Of a stretch of 42,077 nt of DNA, positions 3,101 through 11,691 are shown piece by piece. This DNA comes from an uncultured Bacteroidota bacterium (GTDB lineage Bacteria > Bacteroidota > Bacteroidia > Chitinophagales > Chitinophagaceae), in contig CAIVEH010000017.1 of assembly GCA_903904855.1 (NCBI GenBank), positions 1 to 42,077 on the forward strand, given 5' to 3'. The number at the start of each line of letters is the position of its first letter. The first letter of the stretch is position 1. Position numbers and translations under genes: made by a program. Under the pieces are notes generated by a model, which worked only from the letters and a program-made list of their open reading frames with translations, did no database searches and was not told the DNA's origin.

Positions 3101-6100
3101 ATGGCTACACCACAAAAAAAGACAGCATCCGGGCGTGTGAACTTCGGAAAGTTACACGATGCATCAGCTACCCCCGACCTGCTGGCGATTCAGCTCCAGT
3201 CATTCCAGGATTTTTTCCAGCTCGAAACTACGCCAGATAAGCGTAATAACGAAGGATTATTCCGGGTTTTTAAGGAGAATTTTCCGATCACAGATACGAG
3301 GAACATTTTCGTATTGGAATTCCTGGATTATTTCATTGACCCGCCCCGCTACACCATCGATGAGTGTATGGAGCGCGGCCTGACTTATTCAGTTCCGCTG
3401 AAAGCCAAGCTGAAGCTGAGCTGTAACGATGAGGAGCATGTGGACTTTGAAACTATTGTTCAGGATGTGTTCCTGGGTAATATCCCTTACATGACTCCCC
3501 GTGGCACATTTGTGATCAATGGCGCTGAGCGTGTTGTTGTATCTCAGTTGCACAGGTCTCCTGGTGTGTTCTTCGGTCAGAGTGTTCACCCGAACGGAAC
3601 CAAGATATACAGTGCGCGTGTAATTCCTTTCAAGGGTGCCTGGATGGAGTTTGCTACAGATATTAACAATGTAATGTATGCGTACATTGACCGTAAAAAG
3701 AAATTCCCTGTAACCACACTGCTACGTGCAATAGGTTATGAAACAGATAAAGACATTCTTGACCTGTTCGGCATGGCAGATGAGGTGAAGGTGGATAAGA
3801 AAAGCCTGGCTCCGCACATTGGCCGCAAACTTGCTGCCCGTGTATTGCGCAGCTGGACTGAAGATTTTGTGGATGAGGACACCGGCGAAGTAGTAACCAT
3901 TGAGCGTAACGAAGTGGTACTTGACCGCGACAGTGTGCTTGATGAAGATAACGCTACACTGGTACAGGAAATGGGTATTAAAACCATATTCCTCCAGAAA
4001 GAAGAAGTGAGCGGTGATTACTCAATCATTTACAATACCTTAAACAAAGATACTTCCAACTCTGAGCTTGAAGCCGTTCAGCATATCTACCGCCAGTTGC
4101 GCGGATCGGATGCGCCGGATGATGAAACAGCACGTGGTATCATTGAAAAACTGTTCTTCAGCGATAAGCGTTATGACCTGGGTGAAGTTGGCCGTTATAA
4201 GATCAACCGTAAATTAGGACTGGATATCAACCTGACTACTAAAGTACTTAGCAGGGAAGATATCATTTCGATTATTAAATACCTGGTACGTCTTACCAAT
4301 GGAAAGGCCGATATTGATGATATTGACCATTTGAGCAATCGTCGTGTTCGTACAGTAGGTGAGCAGTTGTTTGCGCAGTTCGGTGTTGGTCTGGCCCGTA
4401 TGGCCCGTACCATCCGTGAGCGAATGAATGTGCGTGATAATGAGGTGTTTACGCCAATTGACCTGATCAATGCTCGTACCCTTTCTTCAGTTATTAATTC
4501 GTTCTTTGGTACATCACAGTTATCCCAGTTCCTTGACCAGACCAATCCATTGTCTGAAATTACCCACAAACGCCGTATCTCGGCGCTTGGTCCGGGCGGT
4601 TTGAGCAGGGAGCGTGCCGGCTTTGAGGTAAGGGACGTACACTACAGCCACTACGGCCGTCTGTGTACCATTGAAACACCTGAGGGACCAAATATCGGTC
4701 TTATCTCTACACTCTGCGTTCACGCACAGATCAATGATATGGGTTTCATAGAAACTCCATACCACAAGGTTAGAGAAGGTAAAGTGGATCTTAAGAATTT
4801 CCGCTTCCTGAGCGCTGAAGAAGAGGATCTTGCCAAGATCGCCCAGGCAAATGTGCCTATGGATGATAAAGGCAACTTCCTGGAAGATAAAATCAAGTCG
4901 AGGCAGACAGGTGACTTTCCTATCCTTGACCCACATGAGGTAGAATACATGGACGTGGCTCCTAACCAGATCGTTGGATTGAGCGCATCACTGATTCCCT
5001 TCCTGGAGCATGATGATGCCAACCGTGCGCTGATGGGATCAAACATGCAACGCCAGGCAGTTCCGCTTATTATACCACAGGTGCCGATTGTAGGTACCGG
5101 ACTGGAAGCTAAGGCCGCCCGCGATGCACGTATTCAGATACATGCAGAAGGCAATGGGGTAGTAGAGTATGTGGATGCAGATCATATACATGTTCGTTAT
5201 GATCGCGGTGAGAAAGAAAGGCTCGTGTCTTTTGAAGATGACCTGAGAATATATACGCTTACCAAGTATAAGAAAACCAACCAGAGCACAGCAATGACCC
5301 TTCGTCCTAGCGTTCGCAAAGGACAGAAGGTGAAGACTGGAGATTTCCTTACTGAAGGCTATGCTACCCAGAATGGTGAGCTGGCACTGGGAAGGAATCT
5401 GAAAGTAGCATTCATGCCATGGAAAGGTTACAACTTTGAGGATGCGATAGTGATCAATGAAAAGGTGGTGCGTGAAGACTGGTTCACATCGGTGCATATT
5501 GATGAGTATGAACTGGAAGTACGTGATACCAAGCTTGGTGAAGAAGAACTGACTGCTGATATACCGAACGTAAGTGAAGATGCAACAAAGGATCTTGATG
5601 AATATGGTATTATACGTATAGGCGCTCATGTGGGTGAAGGTGATATCCTTATTGGTAAGATTACACCAAAGGGAGAAACTGATCCTACTCCTGAAGAGAA
5701 ATTGCTTCGTGCGATCTTCGGTGATAAAGCTGGTGATGCAAAGGATGCTTCTCTGAAAGCTCCGAGCGGAACTGAGGGTATTGTTATCAGCAAGCAGCTG
5801 TTTCAGCGTGCCAAAAAAGACAAGAACTCAAAGGTGCGTGAGAAGACAGCGATGGAGAAAATCGAAAAAACTCACGAGAAGAACCTGGAAGACCTGAAGA
5901 ATTTCTTGTTTGAGAAATTACTTGTGTTGCTGCGCGAAAAAACTTCAGCAGGTATTACCAATAATTTCGGTGAGACAGTATTGAGTAAGGGTGGAAAGTT
6001 CAATTCAAAAACACTCAGTTCAATAGATTACCAGAATGTGAACCCACTTGGCTGGACAGGCGATAAGGAAACTGACGACCTGATCAACCAATTGCTGCAC

Positions 6101-6913
6101 AACTTTAATATTAAATTCAACGAAGAACTGGGCCGCTACAAGAGGGAGAAATTCAACCTCAGTATTGGTGATGAGTTACCAGCTGGTGTACTGAAACTGG
6201 CTAAAGTTTACCTGGCCAGCAAGCGTAAGCTGAAGGTGGGTGATAAAATGGCGGGTCGCCACGGTAACAAGGGTATTGTGGCAAGGATAGTGCGTGAAGA
6301 AGATATGCCGTTCCTGGAAGATGGAACTCCGGTGGACGTGGTATTGAATCCGCTGGGTGTACCTTCCCGTATGAACCTGGGTCAGATATATGAAACCATC
6401 CTTGGATGGGCCGGTGAAAAGCTGGGTCAGCGTTATGCTACTCCGATCTTTGATGGTGCATCTGTAAAGGAAATTGAAGACCTGATTAACCTTGCAGGTT
6501 TACCTGACTTTGGACATACTTATTTGTATGATGGTGAAACAGGGGAGCGTTTCCACCAGAAAGCAACTGTGGGTATTATCTATATCATCAAACTGCATCA
6601 CATGGTTGATGACAAGATGCACGCACGTTCTATCGGGCCTTACAGCTTGATCACGCAGCAGCCATTGGGAGGTAAAGCACAGTTCGGTGGACAGCGTTTT
6701 GGTGAGATGGAGGTTTGGGCACTCGAGGCTTATGGAGCATCGAACATCCTGCAGGAATTACTGACTTTGAAATCGGATGATATTGTTGGCCGTGCCAAGA
6801 CTTACGAAGCAATCGTTAAGGGAGACAATATACCTAAGGCAGGTATACCAGAGTCCTTCAATGTATTGGTGAATGAACTTCGCGGATTAGGATTAGAATT
6901 GAAATTTGAATAA
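3101..6913 (+). CDS. rpoB: DNA-directed RNA polymerase subunit beta
   Basis: This 1,270-residue protein has the full length of Bacteroidota RpoB. With RpoC it forms the catalytic centre of RNA polymerase. The rifampicin region is present from [10 protein letters not shown] at 468-477 through [14 protein letters not shown]. The positions equivalent to E. coli D516, H526 and S531 are D479, H489 and S494, all wild type, so no target-site rifampicin resistance is predicted. Other hallmark stretches are [39 protein letters not shown] and the C-terminal [20 protein letters not shown]. The ATG at 3101 follows AAAAGGAG (3081-3088). rpoC follows in the same direction, but 452 bp away because another gene lies between them. 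Confidence 0.98.
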
Positions 6914-6928
6914 TCAGTCTAAAGTCTA

Positions 6929-6946
6929 AAGTATTAAGTCTAAAGT
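6929..6946 (+). repeat. Left arm of the inverted repeat flanking the IVP gene
   Basis: AAGTATTAAGTCTAAAGT at 6929-6946 is complementary at 17 of 18 positions to 7328-7345. Shorter direct copies of AGTCTAAAGT begin at 6916 and 6923, so the left arm is itself a small tandem array. The arms enclose the IVP gene and nothing else. Confidence 0.75.
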
Positions 6947-6975
6947 TTAGACCTGATATAAAAGCTGAAATTGAA

Positions 6976-7323
6976 ATGAATAACTTTAAGGAGTTAATAG
7001 TTTGGCAAAAAGCAGTAGATTTTGTTGTTAAGATTTACGAAGTAACAAATTATTTTCCTGACAGTGAACGTTACAATCTGGTTAGTCAGAAGCAGAGAGC
7101 AGGTACCTCAATACCGAGTAATATTTCGGAAGGTGCAGGTAGCAATTCTGTAGCAGTTTTTAAGAATCACCTGACAATTGCGTTAGGCTCTTCTTATGAA
7201 TTAGAAACGCAAATAATAATTGGTAGAAAATTAAATTTTATTAGTGAGGAACGTCATAAGGAATTAATAAAAGATTTAAATGAGATTCAGAGAATGACTC
7301 TCGGTTTATATAATTCCTTATGA
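6976..7323 (+). CDS. Four-helix-bundle protein, 23S rRNA intervening-sequence (IVP/S23) family
   Basis: This 115-residue protein has the signature start of the family (FKELIVWQKAVDFVVKIYEV), the centre SQKQRAGTSIPSNISEGAG and the tail typical of S23/IVP proteins (Pfam PF05635; four helix bundle protein). Such proteins were first found in the intervening sequences of 23S rRNA genes and also occur as stand-alone genes; the fold resembles the Avd accessory protein of diversity-generating retroelements. Its molecular role is not established. Here it sits between rpoB and rpoC, 62 bp after the rpoB stop and 42 bp before the rpoC start, same strand, inside an 18-bp inverted repeat. The A+T content looks higher than in the rpo genes, which suggests insertion. 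Confidence 0.9.
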   Translation: MNNFKELIVWQKAVDFVVKIYEVTNYFPDSERYNLVSQKQRAGTSIPSNISEGAGSNSVAVFKNHLTIALGSSYELETQIIIGRKLNFISEERHKELIKDLNEIQRMTLGLYNSL

Positions 7324-7327
7324 TGGT

Positions 7328-7345
7328 ACTTTAGACTTAAGACTT
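7328..7345 (+). repeat. Right arm of the inverted repeat flanking the IVP gene
   Basis: ACTTTAGACTTAAGACTT at 7328-7345 is the reverse complement of 6929-6946 with a single mismatch. Weaker complementarity extends a further dozen positions outward on both sides. In the rpoB-rpoC transcript the arms could pair and loop out about 381 nt containing the IVP coding sequence. Confidence 0.75.
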
Positions 7346-7365
7346 ACTACTTAATACTTAGAAAA

Positions 7366-10300
7366 ATGGCAGTAAAAAAAGATAATCGCCCAAGACCGGG
7401 ATTTGGTAAGATAACCATCAGCCTTGCATCTCCGGATGTAATACTTGACCGTTCTTATGGAGAAGTATTGAAGCCTGAAACAATAAATTACCGTACCTAC
7501 AAGCCTGAGCGTGATGGCTTGTTCTGTGAGAAAATATTCGGCCCGGTAAAGGATTACGAATGTTATTGCGGTAAGTACAAGCGTATCCGTTATAAGGGTA
7601 TTGTTTGCGACCGTTGCGGTGTAGAAGTAACTGAGAAAAAGGTTCGCCGTGAGCGCCTGGGCCACATCAAGCTGGTGGTGCCTATCGTTCATATATGGTA
7701 TTTCAAGAGCCTCCCAAATAAAATAGGCTATCTTCTTGGCGTTAGCTCCAAGAAAATGGAGAGCATCGTTTATTACGAGCGCTATGTGGTAGTAGCAGCA
7801 GGAGAAGCTGAAGAAATGATCAGGACAAAACTGAACCTGAAAGATTCGGAAGATACTGCACAGCAATTGCTTACTGAAGATGAATACCTGGAAATACTGG
7901 ATGGCCTGCATAAGGATAACCAGCATCTGCCAGATGAAGATCCGAATAAGTTTATAGCCAAGATGGGCGCTGAAGCGGTGCATATGCTGCTTTCGCGTAT
8001 TGATCTTGACGCTTTATCTTACGATCTGCGTAACTCAGCAGCCAACGAAACTTCACAGCAACGTAAGCAGGAAGCTTTGAAGCGCCTGAGTGTTGTTGAG
8101 GCTTTCCGTGATGCCAATACCCGTATTGAGAACAGGCTGGAGTGGATGGTAATGCAGTATATTCCTGTTATTCCACCCGAACTGCGTCCGTTGGTTCCTT
8201 TGGATGGTGGCCGTTTTGCGTCATCCGACCTGAATGACCTTTACCGCAGGGTTATTATCCGTAATAACCGTCTGAAACGCCTTATAGAAATCAAGGCTCC
8301 TGAAGTAATCTTACGTAATGAAAAACGTATGCTCCAGGAAGCTGTGGATTCATTGTTTGATAACAGCCGTAAATCGAATGCCGTTAAGGCAGAAGGTGGC
8401 CGTGCGCTGAAATCATTATCAGATGTACTGAAAGGTAAACAAGGCCGTTTCCGTCAGAACCTGTTGGGAAAACGCGTTGACTACTCTGGTCGTTCGGTAA
8501 TAGTGGTAGGTCCGGAAATGAAACTGCATGAGTGTGGTTTGCCAAAGGATATGGCAGCGGAGTTATTCAAACCGTTTATTATCCGCAAGCTTATAGAAAG
8601 AGGCATTGTAAAAACAGTTAAGAGTGCGAAGAAACTGGTAGAGCGTAAGGAAGCTGTGGTTTGGGATATCCTTGAGAATGTACTGAAGGGCCACCCGATC
8701 ATGCTGAACCGCGCCCCAACGCTGCATAGATTATCTATACAGGCATTCCAGCCTAAACTGATTGAAGGAAAGGCAATACAGCTTCACCCACTCGTATGTT
8801 CGGCGTTCAATGCGGATTTCGATGGTGACCAGATGGCTGTTCACGTTCCGCTGAGCAATGCTGCTATTGTAGAAGCTCAGGTACTGATGCTGGCTTCGCA
8901 CAACATCCTTAACCCACAGAATGGTACGCCGATCACCCTTCCTTCTCAGGACATGGTACTTGGTCTGTATTACATCTCTAAGGGCAAGAAATCGACCGAA
9001 ACTGAAAAGGTAAAGGGCGAGAATAAAGCTTACTACAGTGTAGAAGAGGTAATTGTAGCGCATAATGAAGGAAAGGCTGATCTCCATGCATGGATCAAGG
9101 TACGTGCCAATGTGCGTGAAGCAGATGGCAGTATCGTTGTTAAGCTCATAGATACTACCGTAGGTCGCGTATTATTTAACCAGTTTGTTCCAAGGGAGAA
9201 TGGTTTTGTAAATGCACTGCTTACCAAGAAATCTTTAAGAGAGATCATTGGCCAGATATTGAAGAATACCAATATCCCTAAAACAGTTCAATTCCTTGAT
9301 GATATCAAGACCCTTGGATTCCGTACGGCATTCAGAGGTGGATTGTCGTTCAATATCAAGGATCTTACCGTTCCGGATATTAAAGAGAAACTGGTAGAAA
9401 ATGCTCAGGTGGAGGTAGACGAAATCTGGGAAAACTACAACATGGGTCTGATTACCAATAACGAGCGATACAACCAGGTAATTGATGTATGGTCGCGCGT
9501 GGATACCCGTGTGACTGAAACATTGATTCGTGAAATGGCAGCAGACAAGCAGGGCTTCAACTCTGTGTACATGATGCTTGACTCTGGTGCGCGTGGATCT
9601 AAACAGCAGGTAAAACAGCTTGCCGGATTGAGAGGTCTGATGGCTAAACCCCGCCGTAGTGGTTCATCAGGATCAGAAATTATTGAGAATCCGATCCTTT
9701 CTAACTTTAAGGTAGGATTGAGTGTATTGGAGTACTTTATCTCAACCCATGGTGCGCGTAAGGGCCTTGCGGATACGGCACTTAAAACGGCGGATGCGGG
9801 TTATCTGACACGCCGTCTGGTGGATGTGGCACAGGATGTGGTTATCACAGGTGAAGATTGCGGTACTCTTCGTGGTATTGCAACATCGGCACTCAAGGAT
9901 AATGAAGAAATTGTGGAACCATTGTATGACCGTATCTTAGGCCGTACTTCGCTGCATAATGTTTACGATCCTATTTCCGAGGAACTGATAGCTAATGCCG
10001 GTGAGGAAATTACTGAAGATATTGCTAAAAGAATAGAAGACAGCGCGATTGATACAGTTGAAATCCGCTCGGTACTGACTTGCGAAAGCCGCAGGGGTGT
10101 ATGTGCCAAATGCTATGGTAAAAACCTGGCTACAGGATACATGACCCAGAAGGGCGATGCAGTAGGTATCATTGCAGCACAGTCGATCGGTGAGCCGGGA
10201 ACACAGCTTACGCTGCGTACCTTCCACGTGGGTGGTGTTGCGGGTTCATCAGCTATCGAATCACAATTGGTGGCCCGTTTCGATGGAACCATTCAGTTTG

Positions 10301-11691
10301 ATGGTCTGCGTACTACCAAGTATAAAGATGCAGAAGGCGCTGACCAGACGGTAGTAATAGGCCGTACAGGAGAGGTGCGTATAGTGGATATGGCCAATGA
10401 CCGCCTGCTTATTACCAACAACATACCTTATGGTTCATTGTTGCGTGTAGCCAATGGCAAGAAGGTTGTGAAGGGTGATGTAATCTGTACGTGGGATCCG
10501 TTCAATGCGGTAATCATTTCTGAAATTTCGGGTAAGGTTCGTTTCGATGCGGTAATAGAAGGTATTACTTATCGTGAAGAGGCAGATGAGCAGACAGGAC
10601 ACCGCGAGAAAGTGGTAATTGAAACAAAGGATAAAACAAAAATACCATCCATATACATTGATGGCGCTAAAGACCAGAAGATGTATAACCTTCCGGTAGG
10701 TTCGCACATCGTTGTCAATATTGATGATGAAGTGGCCAACGGAACGGTACTGGTGAAGATACCACGTGTGATGGGCCGTAGCCGGGATATCACGGGAGGT
10801 CTGCCAAGGGTAACTGAGCTGTTTGAGGCACGTAACCCAAGTAACCCTGCCGTAGTAGCTGAAATAGATGGTGTGGTAGGATTTGGTAATGTGAAACGTG
10901 GTAACCGTGAGATCGTGGTTGAGTCGCGCGAAGGACTGGTGAAGAAATACCTGGTGCCGCTGACCCGTCATATCATGGTGCAGGATGGCGACTTTGTAAA
11001 GGCTGGTACATCACTCTCTGATGGTGCCACTACACCAAGCGATATCCTGTCGATCAAGGGGCCGTTTGCGGTGCAGGAATACCTGGTAAATGAAATACAG
11101 GAAGTATATCGTTTACAGGGTGTGAAGATTAATGACAAGCACATTGAGGTGATTGTTCGCCAGATGATGCGTAAGGTGAATATAGTTGATCCGGGTGATA
11201 CCAAGTTCCTGGAAGAAGATACAGTAGATAAGTTTGAGTTTATGGACGAAAACGACTGGATCTATGATAAGAAAGTGGTAACCGAATCAGGCGCAAGCGA
11301 TAAGATGCACCCTGGCCAGATCGTTACACTGCGTGAGATCCGTGAAGAAAACAGCGGATTGCGCAGGGCTGATAAGAAACTGGTAGAGTACCGTGATGCA
11401 AATCCGGCAACATCTTCACCAATGCTTCTGGGTATTACCAAGGCGTCTCTGGGTACACAAAGCTGGATATCAGCAGCATCGTTCCAGGAAACTACCAAGG
11501 TATTGTCTCAGGCATCCATCAATGGTAAGGCTGACTTCCTGATGGGCCTCAAGGAAAACGTTATTACAGGTAACCTCATCCCTGCGGGAACCGGTATGCG
11601 CGAATTCGATGACCTGGTAGTAGGTTCTAAGGAAGAGTTTGAACTGCTGCAGGCCAACAGGGATGTGCTTCAGTTTGACGAGGAAGAATAA
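7366..11691 (+). CDS. rpoC: DNA-directed RNA polymerase subunit beta'
   Basis: This 1,441-residue protein has the expected length for Bacteroidota RpoC. The N-terminal zinc-binding cysteines are C66, C68, C81 and C84. The catalytic magnesium motif NADFDGDQM places the three aspartates at 484, 486 and 488. The second zinc site is formed by DCGTLRG together with [13 protein letters not shown], and the stretch [19 protein letters not shown] precedes the trigger loop. It pairs with RpoB in core polymerase. The start is the ATG at 7366, preceded only by an A-rich leader without a clear Shine-Dalgarno, which is common in this phylum. The leader lies directly after the right arm of the IVP inverted repeat, so pairing of the arms may affect access to this start. 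Confidence 0.98.

Follow-up and report, generated by a model that had tools for sequence, protein, structure and literature searches.

An IVP-family gene between complementary heptad arms in the rpoB-rpoC spacer of a Chitinophagaceae bacterium: a candidate intervening-sequence-type cassette in a protein-coding operon

The closest described counterpart of the unit presented here is the intervening sequence (IVS) of the Coxiella 23S rRNA gene, in which an S23p open reading frame (ORF) lies within a 28-bp terminal stem that is cut by RNase III in vitro (PMC4990558). Two or three GACAGAT heptameric repeats precede this ORF, and the cut occurs at the first repeat (PMC4990558). That paper describes it as unclear what IVSs and the S23/IVP protein do and where they come from, and it treats IVSs only in rRNA (PMC4990558). 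Some of the insertions in the 16S and 23S rRNA genes of CPR bacteria are reported to carry an IVP ORF as well (PMC11270868), and Avd (4DWL) and the PF05635 protein 2GSC have been described as homologous (PMC10053308). In Flavobacterium columnare, a gene for a four helix bundle protein is reported, among phage elements, between those for guanylate kinase and nicotinate-nucleotide adenylyltransferase (PMC5524665), and a change in expression has been measured for an IVP gene of F. psychrophilum (PMC5787105). Heptad repeats are known, too: TAACTGA heptads were described before start codons in Beggiatoaceae, further cases being reported from cyanobacteria and a number of Bacteroidetes (PMC4679880). 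That account makes no connection with IVP genes, since the terms “helix bundle,” “23S,” “S23” and “intervening” are absent from the main text of that paper. The protein family, the architecture of IVSs and the occurrence of IVP ORFs in rRNA insertions are already known; among the matches listed in open-licence PMC full texts, no paper links complementary heptad arms to IVP genes located elsewhere than in rRNA.

The window analyzed here, i.e., the whole stretch of 42,077 nt from an uncultured Chitinophagaceae bacterium, contains rpoB (3101–6913, Pfam RNA_pol_Rpb2 domains) and rpoC (7366–11691, Pfam RNA_pol_Rpb1 domains) on the forward strand, and the spacer between them is filled by a single ORF on the same strand (6976–7323), in line with an earlier note on this DNA, which had placed an IVP gene alone between the two polymerase genes. 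The ORF is thus sense to the host transcript, as in an IVS. Its frame is intact, and its product, an S23-type four-helix-bundle protein of 115 aa, belongs to the 23S_rRNA_IVP family, as it exceeds the curated cut-offs of both PF05635 (E 7.6e-37; 126.2 bits versus 33.8 in a profile search) and TIGR02436 (E 1.3e-33; 115.4 bits versus 24); solved structures among its relatives are 2gsc and 2rld. Identity as the Avd protein of a diversity-generating retroelement (DGR) was considered and rejected: the match to bAvd (NF033474; E 7.5e-6, 25.2 bits) stays below the cut-off of 80 bits, and the neighbors are rpoB and rpoC, without an adjoining reverse transcriptase. A group I or II intron was rejected as well, given that no Rfam match up to an E value of 1 was obtained for positions 6600–7700. 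The IVP gene is the only gene inside the unit (hereafter the rpoBC unit), and a transposase is absent from it.

On either side of the IVP gene lies a degenerate heptad array on the forward strand, each consisting of four tandem heptads plus three bases. The left arm, (AGTnnnn)4AGT (6916–6946), starts 2 nt past the rpoB stop codon and has a period of 7, with AGTCTAA as first, second and fourth heptad, AGTATTA as third, and a final AGT. The right arm, (ACTnnnn)4ACT (7328–7358), represents the same type of array on the other strand, is complementary to the left arm and ends 7 nt short of the rpoC ATG. The inverted repeat of 18 nt described in the earlier note does match at 17 of 18 positions (6929–6946 versus 7328–7345), its pairing further out extends to the full ungapped arms of 31 nt, which are 81% complementary, and the extra direct copies at the left correspond to AGTCTAAAGT, found three times, at 6916, 6923 and 6937. 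Weak, on the other hand, is the suggestion that the arms mask the start of rpoC, because the ATG sits 7 nt beyond the right arm. No other heptad array of the AGT or ACT type reaches 24 nt in the 42-kb window. Elsewhere in the window, at 402–423 and 609–630, a palindrome-like sequence, GTCGGGATTATAAATCCCGAC, occurs as two inverted copies.

Complementary arms turn out to be the rule for IVP genes, and the rpoBC unit is one case of it. The sample comprised the source genome (G000) and 60 related genomes, 46 of them with a match (the matches of G052 and G034 were not among the fetched loci); 97 loci with 103 profile matches yielded a related set of 80 distinct full-length units with flanks of 150 nt, and the best local complementarity of the left with the right flank served as arm score. 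All 80 units match PF05635, and 38 of them also match bAvd at an E value of 0.01. The median arm score is 21, and 62 of the 80 units score at least 16, compared to 4 of 809 displaced windows with equal spacing and 14 of 240 mismatched left/right pairs; the rpoBC unit of the window scores 19, and none of the 809 displaced windows reaches 20. In a second, named set, made up of the best 80 loci of a longer match list (79 after removal of L152 at a contig end), the same threshold is reached by 57 of 79 units versus 11 of 1737 displaced windows and 30 of 237 mismatched pairs. When the flanks of 132 other genes in the same loci were scored, 14 reached 16, and nine of these genes proved to be further IVP genes, so that arms indicate IVP genes even where the gene was not sought; with those nine removed, arms remain in 5 of at most 123 other genes. 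Two relatives of IVP genes, L006 and L007, have scores of 8 and 9 and are therefore without arms. These near-identical (91%) Avd-like genes of the source genome (on C163 and C106; L006 is typed as Avd) probably belong to diversity-generating retroelements. Thirteen of the 80 named loci contain two IVP ORFs each (e.g., L131, L164, L180), and in L131, judged by coordinates, one of them lies on either side of a thiolase gene.

In addition, 24 plasmid records contained a match, the 15 records listed being cyanobacterial, and ten plasmid loci were examined. Six of these ten have arms scoring at least 14 (compared to 4 of 115 control windows), for instance GGGAACA arrays in Nostoc. On two cyanobacterial plasmids (L347, L351), IVP genes lie between cas6 and cas4 of CRISPR loci, and the flanking repeats of L347 (AAAAGCT-type) are direct rather than inverted. 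The STRR heptanucleotide repeats of cyanobacteria share a period of 7 and degenerate words with IVP arms; they are not known as arms of IVP genes, and they are compared here through the ten plasmid loci only. No match was found among phage records, and no larger cargo between distant arms in the four stretches searched.

The arms are heptad arrays in most units: of the 120 left arms that measure 24 nt or more, 86 repeat best at a period of 7 and 28 at a period of 8, compared to 12 and 21, respectively, of 159 control segments. The words themselves vary widely (AGTCTAA, AGTAGAT, AAGTCGT, TTGATTAG, CAGTTGA, AATTCGAC, etc.), whereas the complementarity of left and right arm is kept. Among 12 rpoBC units, a left arm pairs better with its own right arm than with that of another unit (mean 18.7 versus 14.0; 1 of 20000 permutations, in a statistic that ignores descent). 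That arm words move with the gene between different junctions is weakly indicated.

Heptads of this kind are not confined to IVP units. Complementary arms, which the earlier note had suggested looking for around all IVP genes of the genome, are indeed common (62/80, 57/79 and 6/10 in the three samples), and repeats of the AGTCTAAAGT type are not exclusive to IVP genes. At up to two mismatches, AGTCTAAAGTCTAAAGT has 81 hits in the source genome (some overlapping within arrays) but only 3 for the reversed control, and AGTNNNN x4 has 310 hits, which overlap within arrays, versus 90. Forty-nine heptad sites without an IVP gene were fetched from the source genome (L268–L286, L287–L321): 26 are ACT arrays shortly 5′ of a start codon (11 of which also qualify as lying shortly after a stop), 13 are AGT arrays that closely follow a stop, and 10 are of other kinds. 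IVP-free arrays also lie between rpoA and rplQ (L322, 985–1015) and between prs and rplY (L323, 2778–2808), gene names being taken from translations. Since the same heptads occur at IVP-free gene borders, IVP units either draw on a class of repeats spread over the genome or are its source. These sites and the AGTCTAAAGTCTAAAGT counts, together with the published pre-start heptads of Beggiatoaceae and others (PMC4679880), would fit the explanation that the arms are ordinary gene-border heptads (AGT after stops, ACT before starts) serving translation or message ends, and that a small gene landing between two of them acquires arms by default. However, only 4 of the 49 sites are accompanied by a complementary partner at up to 420 nt, unlike most IVP genes, arms are as rare among the non-IVP genes of the same loci as stated above, and left and right words change jointly. 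We consider this explanation quite improbable; it is the paired arrangement of the heptads that distinguishes IVP units.

The history of the rpoBC unit was followed in 35 genomes of the genus, in 27 of which the end of rpoB was readable. Thirteen of the 27 rpoB-rpoC junctions carry an IVP gene (one with an in-frame stop, one truncated by the contig end), four carry remnants as judged by eye (G012, G017, G022 and G029, that of G022 consisting of arms only), and ten carry none; outside the genus, no IVP gene was found in the 18 readable of 22 junctions, whose spacers measure 19–119 nt. The IVP tree has three classes, which match the arm words: A (AGTCTAA; the unit of the window), B (AGTCGAA) and C (AGTAGAT). 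In the rpoB tree, by contrast, G028, whose unit is of class C, groups with G000 and G026, both of class A (support 99/98). In AU tests, the IVP data reject the grouping of G000, G026 and G028 (p 0.002), whereas the rpoB data reject a separation of class C from A+B (p 0.008); they also reject class A, though weakly (p 0.044). Between G000 and G028, similarity is 84% and 85% in the adjoining 150 nt of rpoB and rpoC, compared to 65% in the IVP gene. As the classes of gene and arms are concordant with each other and discordant with the rpoB tree, gene and arms changed hands jointly at the rpoB-rpoC site, by either cassette transfer or recombination with short flanks. The earlier idea that IVP genes travel with such repeats is thereby borne out within the genus, where gene and arms behave as one cassette exchanged between species.

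A small gene of the rpoBC operon that is plainly inherited by vertical descent and surrounded by chance repeats would account for the fact that all 13 units of the genus occupy the same site. This explanation is hardly credible in view of the conflict with the rpoB tree, the ten of 27 junctions without the unit and the four with remnants; furthermore, it is opposed by the controls with displaced windows, mismatched pairs and other genes, and by the presence of IVP units at dozens of other junctions. Where the gene is present, its protein is maintained by selection: dN/dS is 0.06–0.15 in eight orthologue pairs (a ninth is saturated), values that are rough because most dS are near or above 1. 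On an rpoB tree of 26 rows, presence of the unit is unclustered (9 changes; 327 of 500 label shuffles are as low). With 5 of 23 inner branches starred, this tree is too poorly resolved to separate losses from gains, though the remnants do show losses.

Present, remnant and absent states (13/4/10) were thus found when the junctions of relatives were compared, as the earlier note had proposed, without an exact empty site among them: the unit-free rpoB-rpoC spacers of the genus hold unrelated short palindromes and gave no clean target site. By eye, the ten IVP-less spacers (G014, G007, G030, G013, G020, G004, G031, G002, G008 and G034; L038–L061) each contain a short palindrome of another kind, for example GTAGAGACGC..GCGTCTCTAC, which is imperfect in G020. 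The rpoB-rpoC spacer of the genus therefore seems to be usually hairpin-bearing. A similar survey covered fadN-fadA spacers in a Flavobacterium-type genus, where 30 of 79 matches were fetched and 13 junctions were readable (L244–L266). Two of these 13 contain IVP units, one is a 5-nt spacer, and ten are spacers with other inverted repeats (by eye), several of them with heptad-like arms and a short loop; a clean target site was not found among the 13 here, either.

The variety of junctions is considerable. In a strict count, with neighbors of at least 110 aa and arms scoring at least 14, 122 armed units with callable neighbors are located at 67 gene pairs (149 units at 82 pairs overall), and a first count, which admitted neighbors down to 60 aa and split some pairs, gave 159 units at 96 pairs. 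Recurrent junctions in the first count, named from translations, are fadN/fadA (27), rpoB/rpoC (11), sdhA/sdhB (6), fadA/acyl-CoA dehydrogenase (6) and mutA/mutB (3); others include sufB/sufC, atpD/atpC and a gene pair ending in argH. Arm-flanked IVP units sit in operon spacers of many kinds. Armed units with two neighbors (score at least 14) are co-directional with both in 58 of 61 cases of the named set and, rpoBC units excluded, in 41 of 51 of the related set; in the named set, three units are exceptions, two of which (L171 and L186, at atpD/atpC) arise because atpC is too short for the gene filter. Between co-directional neighbors, an armed IVP gene is antisense in 0 of 58 (named) and 1 of 42 (related) cases, i.e., 99 of 100 are sense. 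The sense orientation is partly expected, because neighboring genes in these loci lie on one strand in 185 of 211 pairs, and arm-free units between co-directional genes are sense just as frequently (23 of 24). On the cyanobacterial plasmids, 3 of 10 IVP genes are antisense to both neighbors.

Could the arms act in RNA? A fold predicted for positions 6905–7380 of the forward strand has an MFE of −118.9 kcal/mol (z −5.56 versus 100 dinucleotide shuffles) and pairs both arms at the base of the structure. Judged by their 81% complementarity over 31 nt, the controls and this fold, the arms are able to form a terminal stem like that of an IVS. Selection on a stem in sense RNA should favor G.U over A.C among the mismatches between arms. 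Among all arm mismatches, 170 are G.U and 218 A.C, compared to 381 and 568 in cross pairs (Fisher p 0.22), and among isolated mismatches the numbers are 20 and 48, versus 55 and 59 in cross pairs (p 0.013). The latter excess of A.C over G.U constitutes a strand asymmetry in the 126 IVP units scoring at least 14. Selection on a sense-RNA stem is unsupported by this test, which, taken alone, speaks against it, and the plasmid copies in antisense orientation agree with it.

These two observations favor an explanation at the level of DNA, in which the arms are the ends of a mobile cassette and their complementarity is kept by moving or copying, through a single-stranded DNA hairpin or template switching, with no cut in RNA. 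The exchange of cassettes between species, the arms-only remnant of G022, the IVP-less hairpins seen by eye at fadN-fadA in the Flavobacterium-type genus and the existence of plasmid copies, some of them antisense, would all be accommodated. Against this stands the orientation of 99 of 100 armed units between co-directional genes in the sets dominated by Bacteroidota, which would require strong selection if the cassette could insert in either orientation, as well as the absence of a transposase inside the unit and the variation of arm words from unit to unit. We regard the DNA-level explanation as somewhat unlikely.

On balance, we lean toward the reading, slightly on the probable side, that the rpoBC unit, with its IVP gene between a left and a right heptad arm, represents a cassette of the IVS type that sits in a spacer between protein-coding genes of an operon and whose arms would be cut as part of an mRNA. 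The earlier proposal of an mRNA intervening sequence is thus retained in part: arms, variety of junctions, cassette-like behavior and likeness to the 23S IVS speak for it, while the missing G.U preference and the three of ten antisense plasmid copies do not. The cassette would be transcribed and translated within the rpoB-rpoC message, and its arms could form a stem of roughly 30 bp that closes a loop containing the IVP gene. RNase III may then cut the stem and separate the rpoB and rpoC messages, which would be of little expense to the host, since neither the rpoB nor the rpoC frame extends into the arms. The host probably tolerates the cassette without depending on it. The IVP protein probably attaches to nucleic acid of the unit that encodes it and helps to maintain or spread that unit. 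Sequence comparison itself shows a cassette with heptad arms that is found at dozens of junctions, has a sense orientation in operons of Bacteroidota, encodes a protein under purifying selection, has been exchanged as a block of gene and arms between species and has decayed in some of them.

A wider hypothesis, which we consider unlikely, holds that IVP units form one mobile family common to Bacteroidota, Cyanobacteria and rRNA genes and marked by the pair of heptad arms. The IVP protein, a relative of Avd, would recognize its own arm repeats, RNase III would excise the unit from messages and rRNA alike, and the unit might spread to hairpin-forming or heptad-bearing spacers, possibly via an RNA copy made by a reverse transcriptase in trans; the 23S IVS would then be merely the best-known landing site.

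Cassettes at many core-gene junctions of relatives suggest that cut-out pieces are not limited to rRNA. Should the messages of core operons carry the same unit, its processing and spread could be studied by removing a single copy, with the ribosome left untouched, and expression of operons such as rpoBC might vary between close species by means of a removable cassette. The heptad arms, in turn, provide a sequence mark for finding further units and for probing what the IVP protein binds.

How does the unit compare with the systems described so far? The bAvd protein of diversity-generating retroelements is a distant relative of the IVP protein of the rpoBC unit, and the two Avd-like genes of the source genome differ from this unit by being without arms. 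The insertions of CPR bacteria differ in that they are described inside rRNA genes and mostly with homing endonucleases (PMC11270868). The TAACTGA repeats resemble the arms as period-7 intergenic arrays, those of Maribeggiatoa being placed mostly a few nucleotides before a start (MacGregor, 2015; PMC4679880), and the heptad sites without IVP genes in the source genome are similar to these pre-start repeats of Beggiatoaceae. Unlike IVP arms, the TAACTGA repeats are described as direct, with one indirect repeat in the Maribeggiatoa genome (PMC4679880). The closest likeness is to the 23S rRNA IVSs of Coxiella burnetii and Leptospira. They differ from the rpoBC unit in location, as the latter lies in an mRNA spacer, between rpoB and rpoC, and not in helix 9, 25 or 45 of 23S rRNA, and in the fate of the host pieces, which here are messages that need no holding together. 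Conserved 23S words were found at none of 158 IVP loci, most of them with short flanks, and none of these loci is therefore itself seen as an rRNA IVS. Shared by both are the scattered occurrence with signs of horizontal transfer, the sense ORF of the IVP family inside complementary arms, and heptameric repeats, which in the published account of Coxiella are described on the 5′ side only (PMC4990558). With about 430 nt, the Coxiella IVS also has about the size of the rpoBC unit, and it is this agreement in parts, order and approximate size on which the reading as an IVS-type cassette in mRNA is based.
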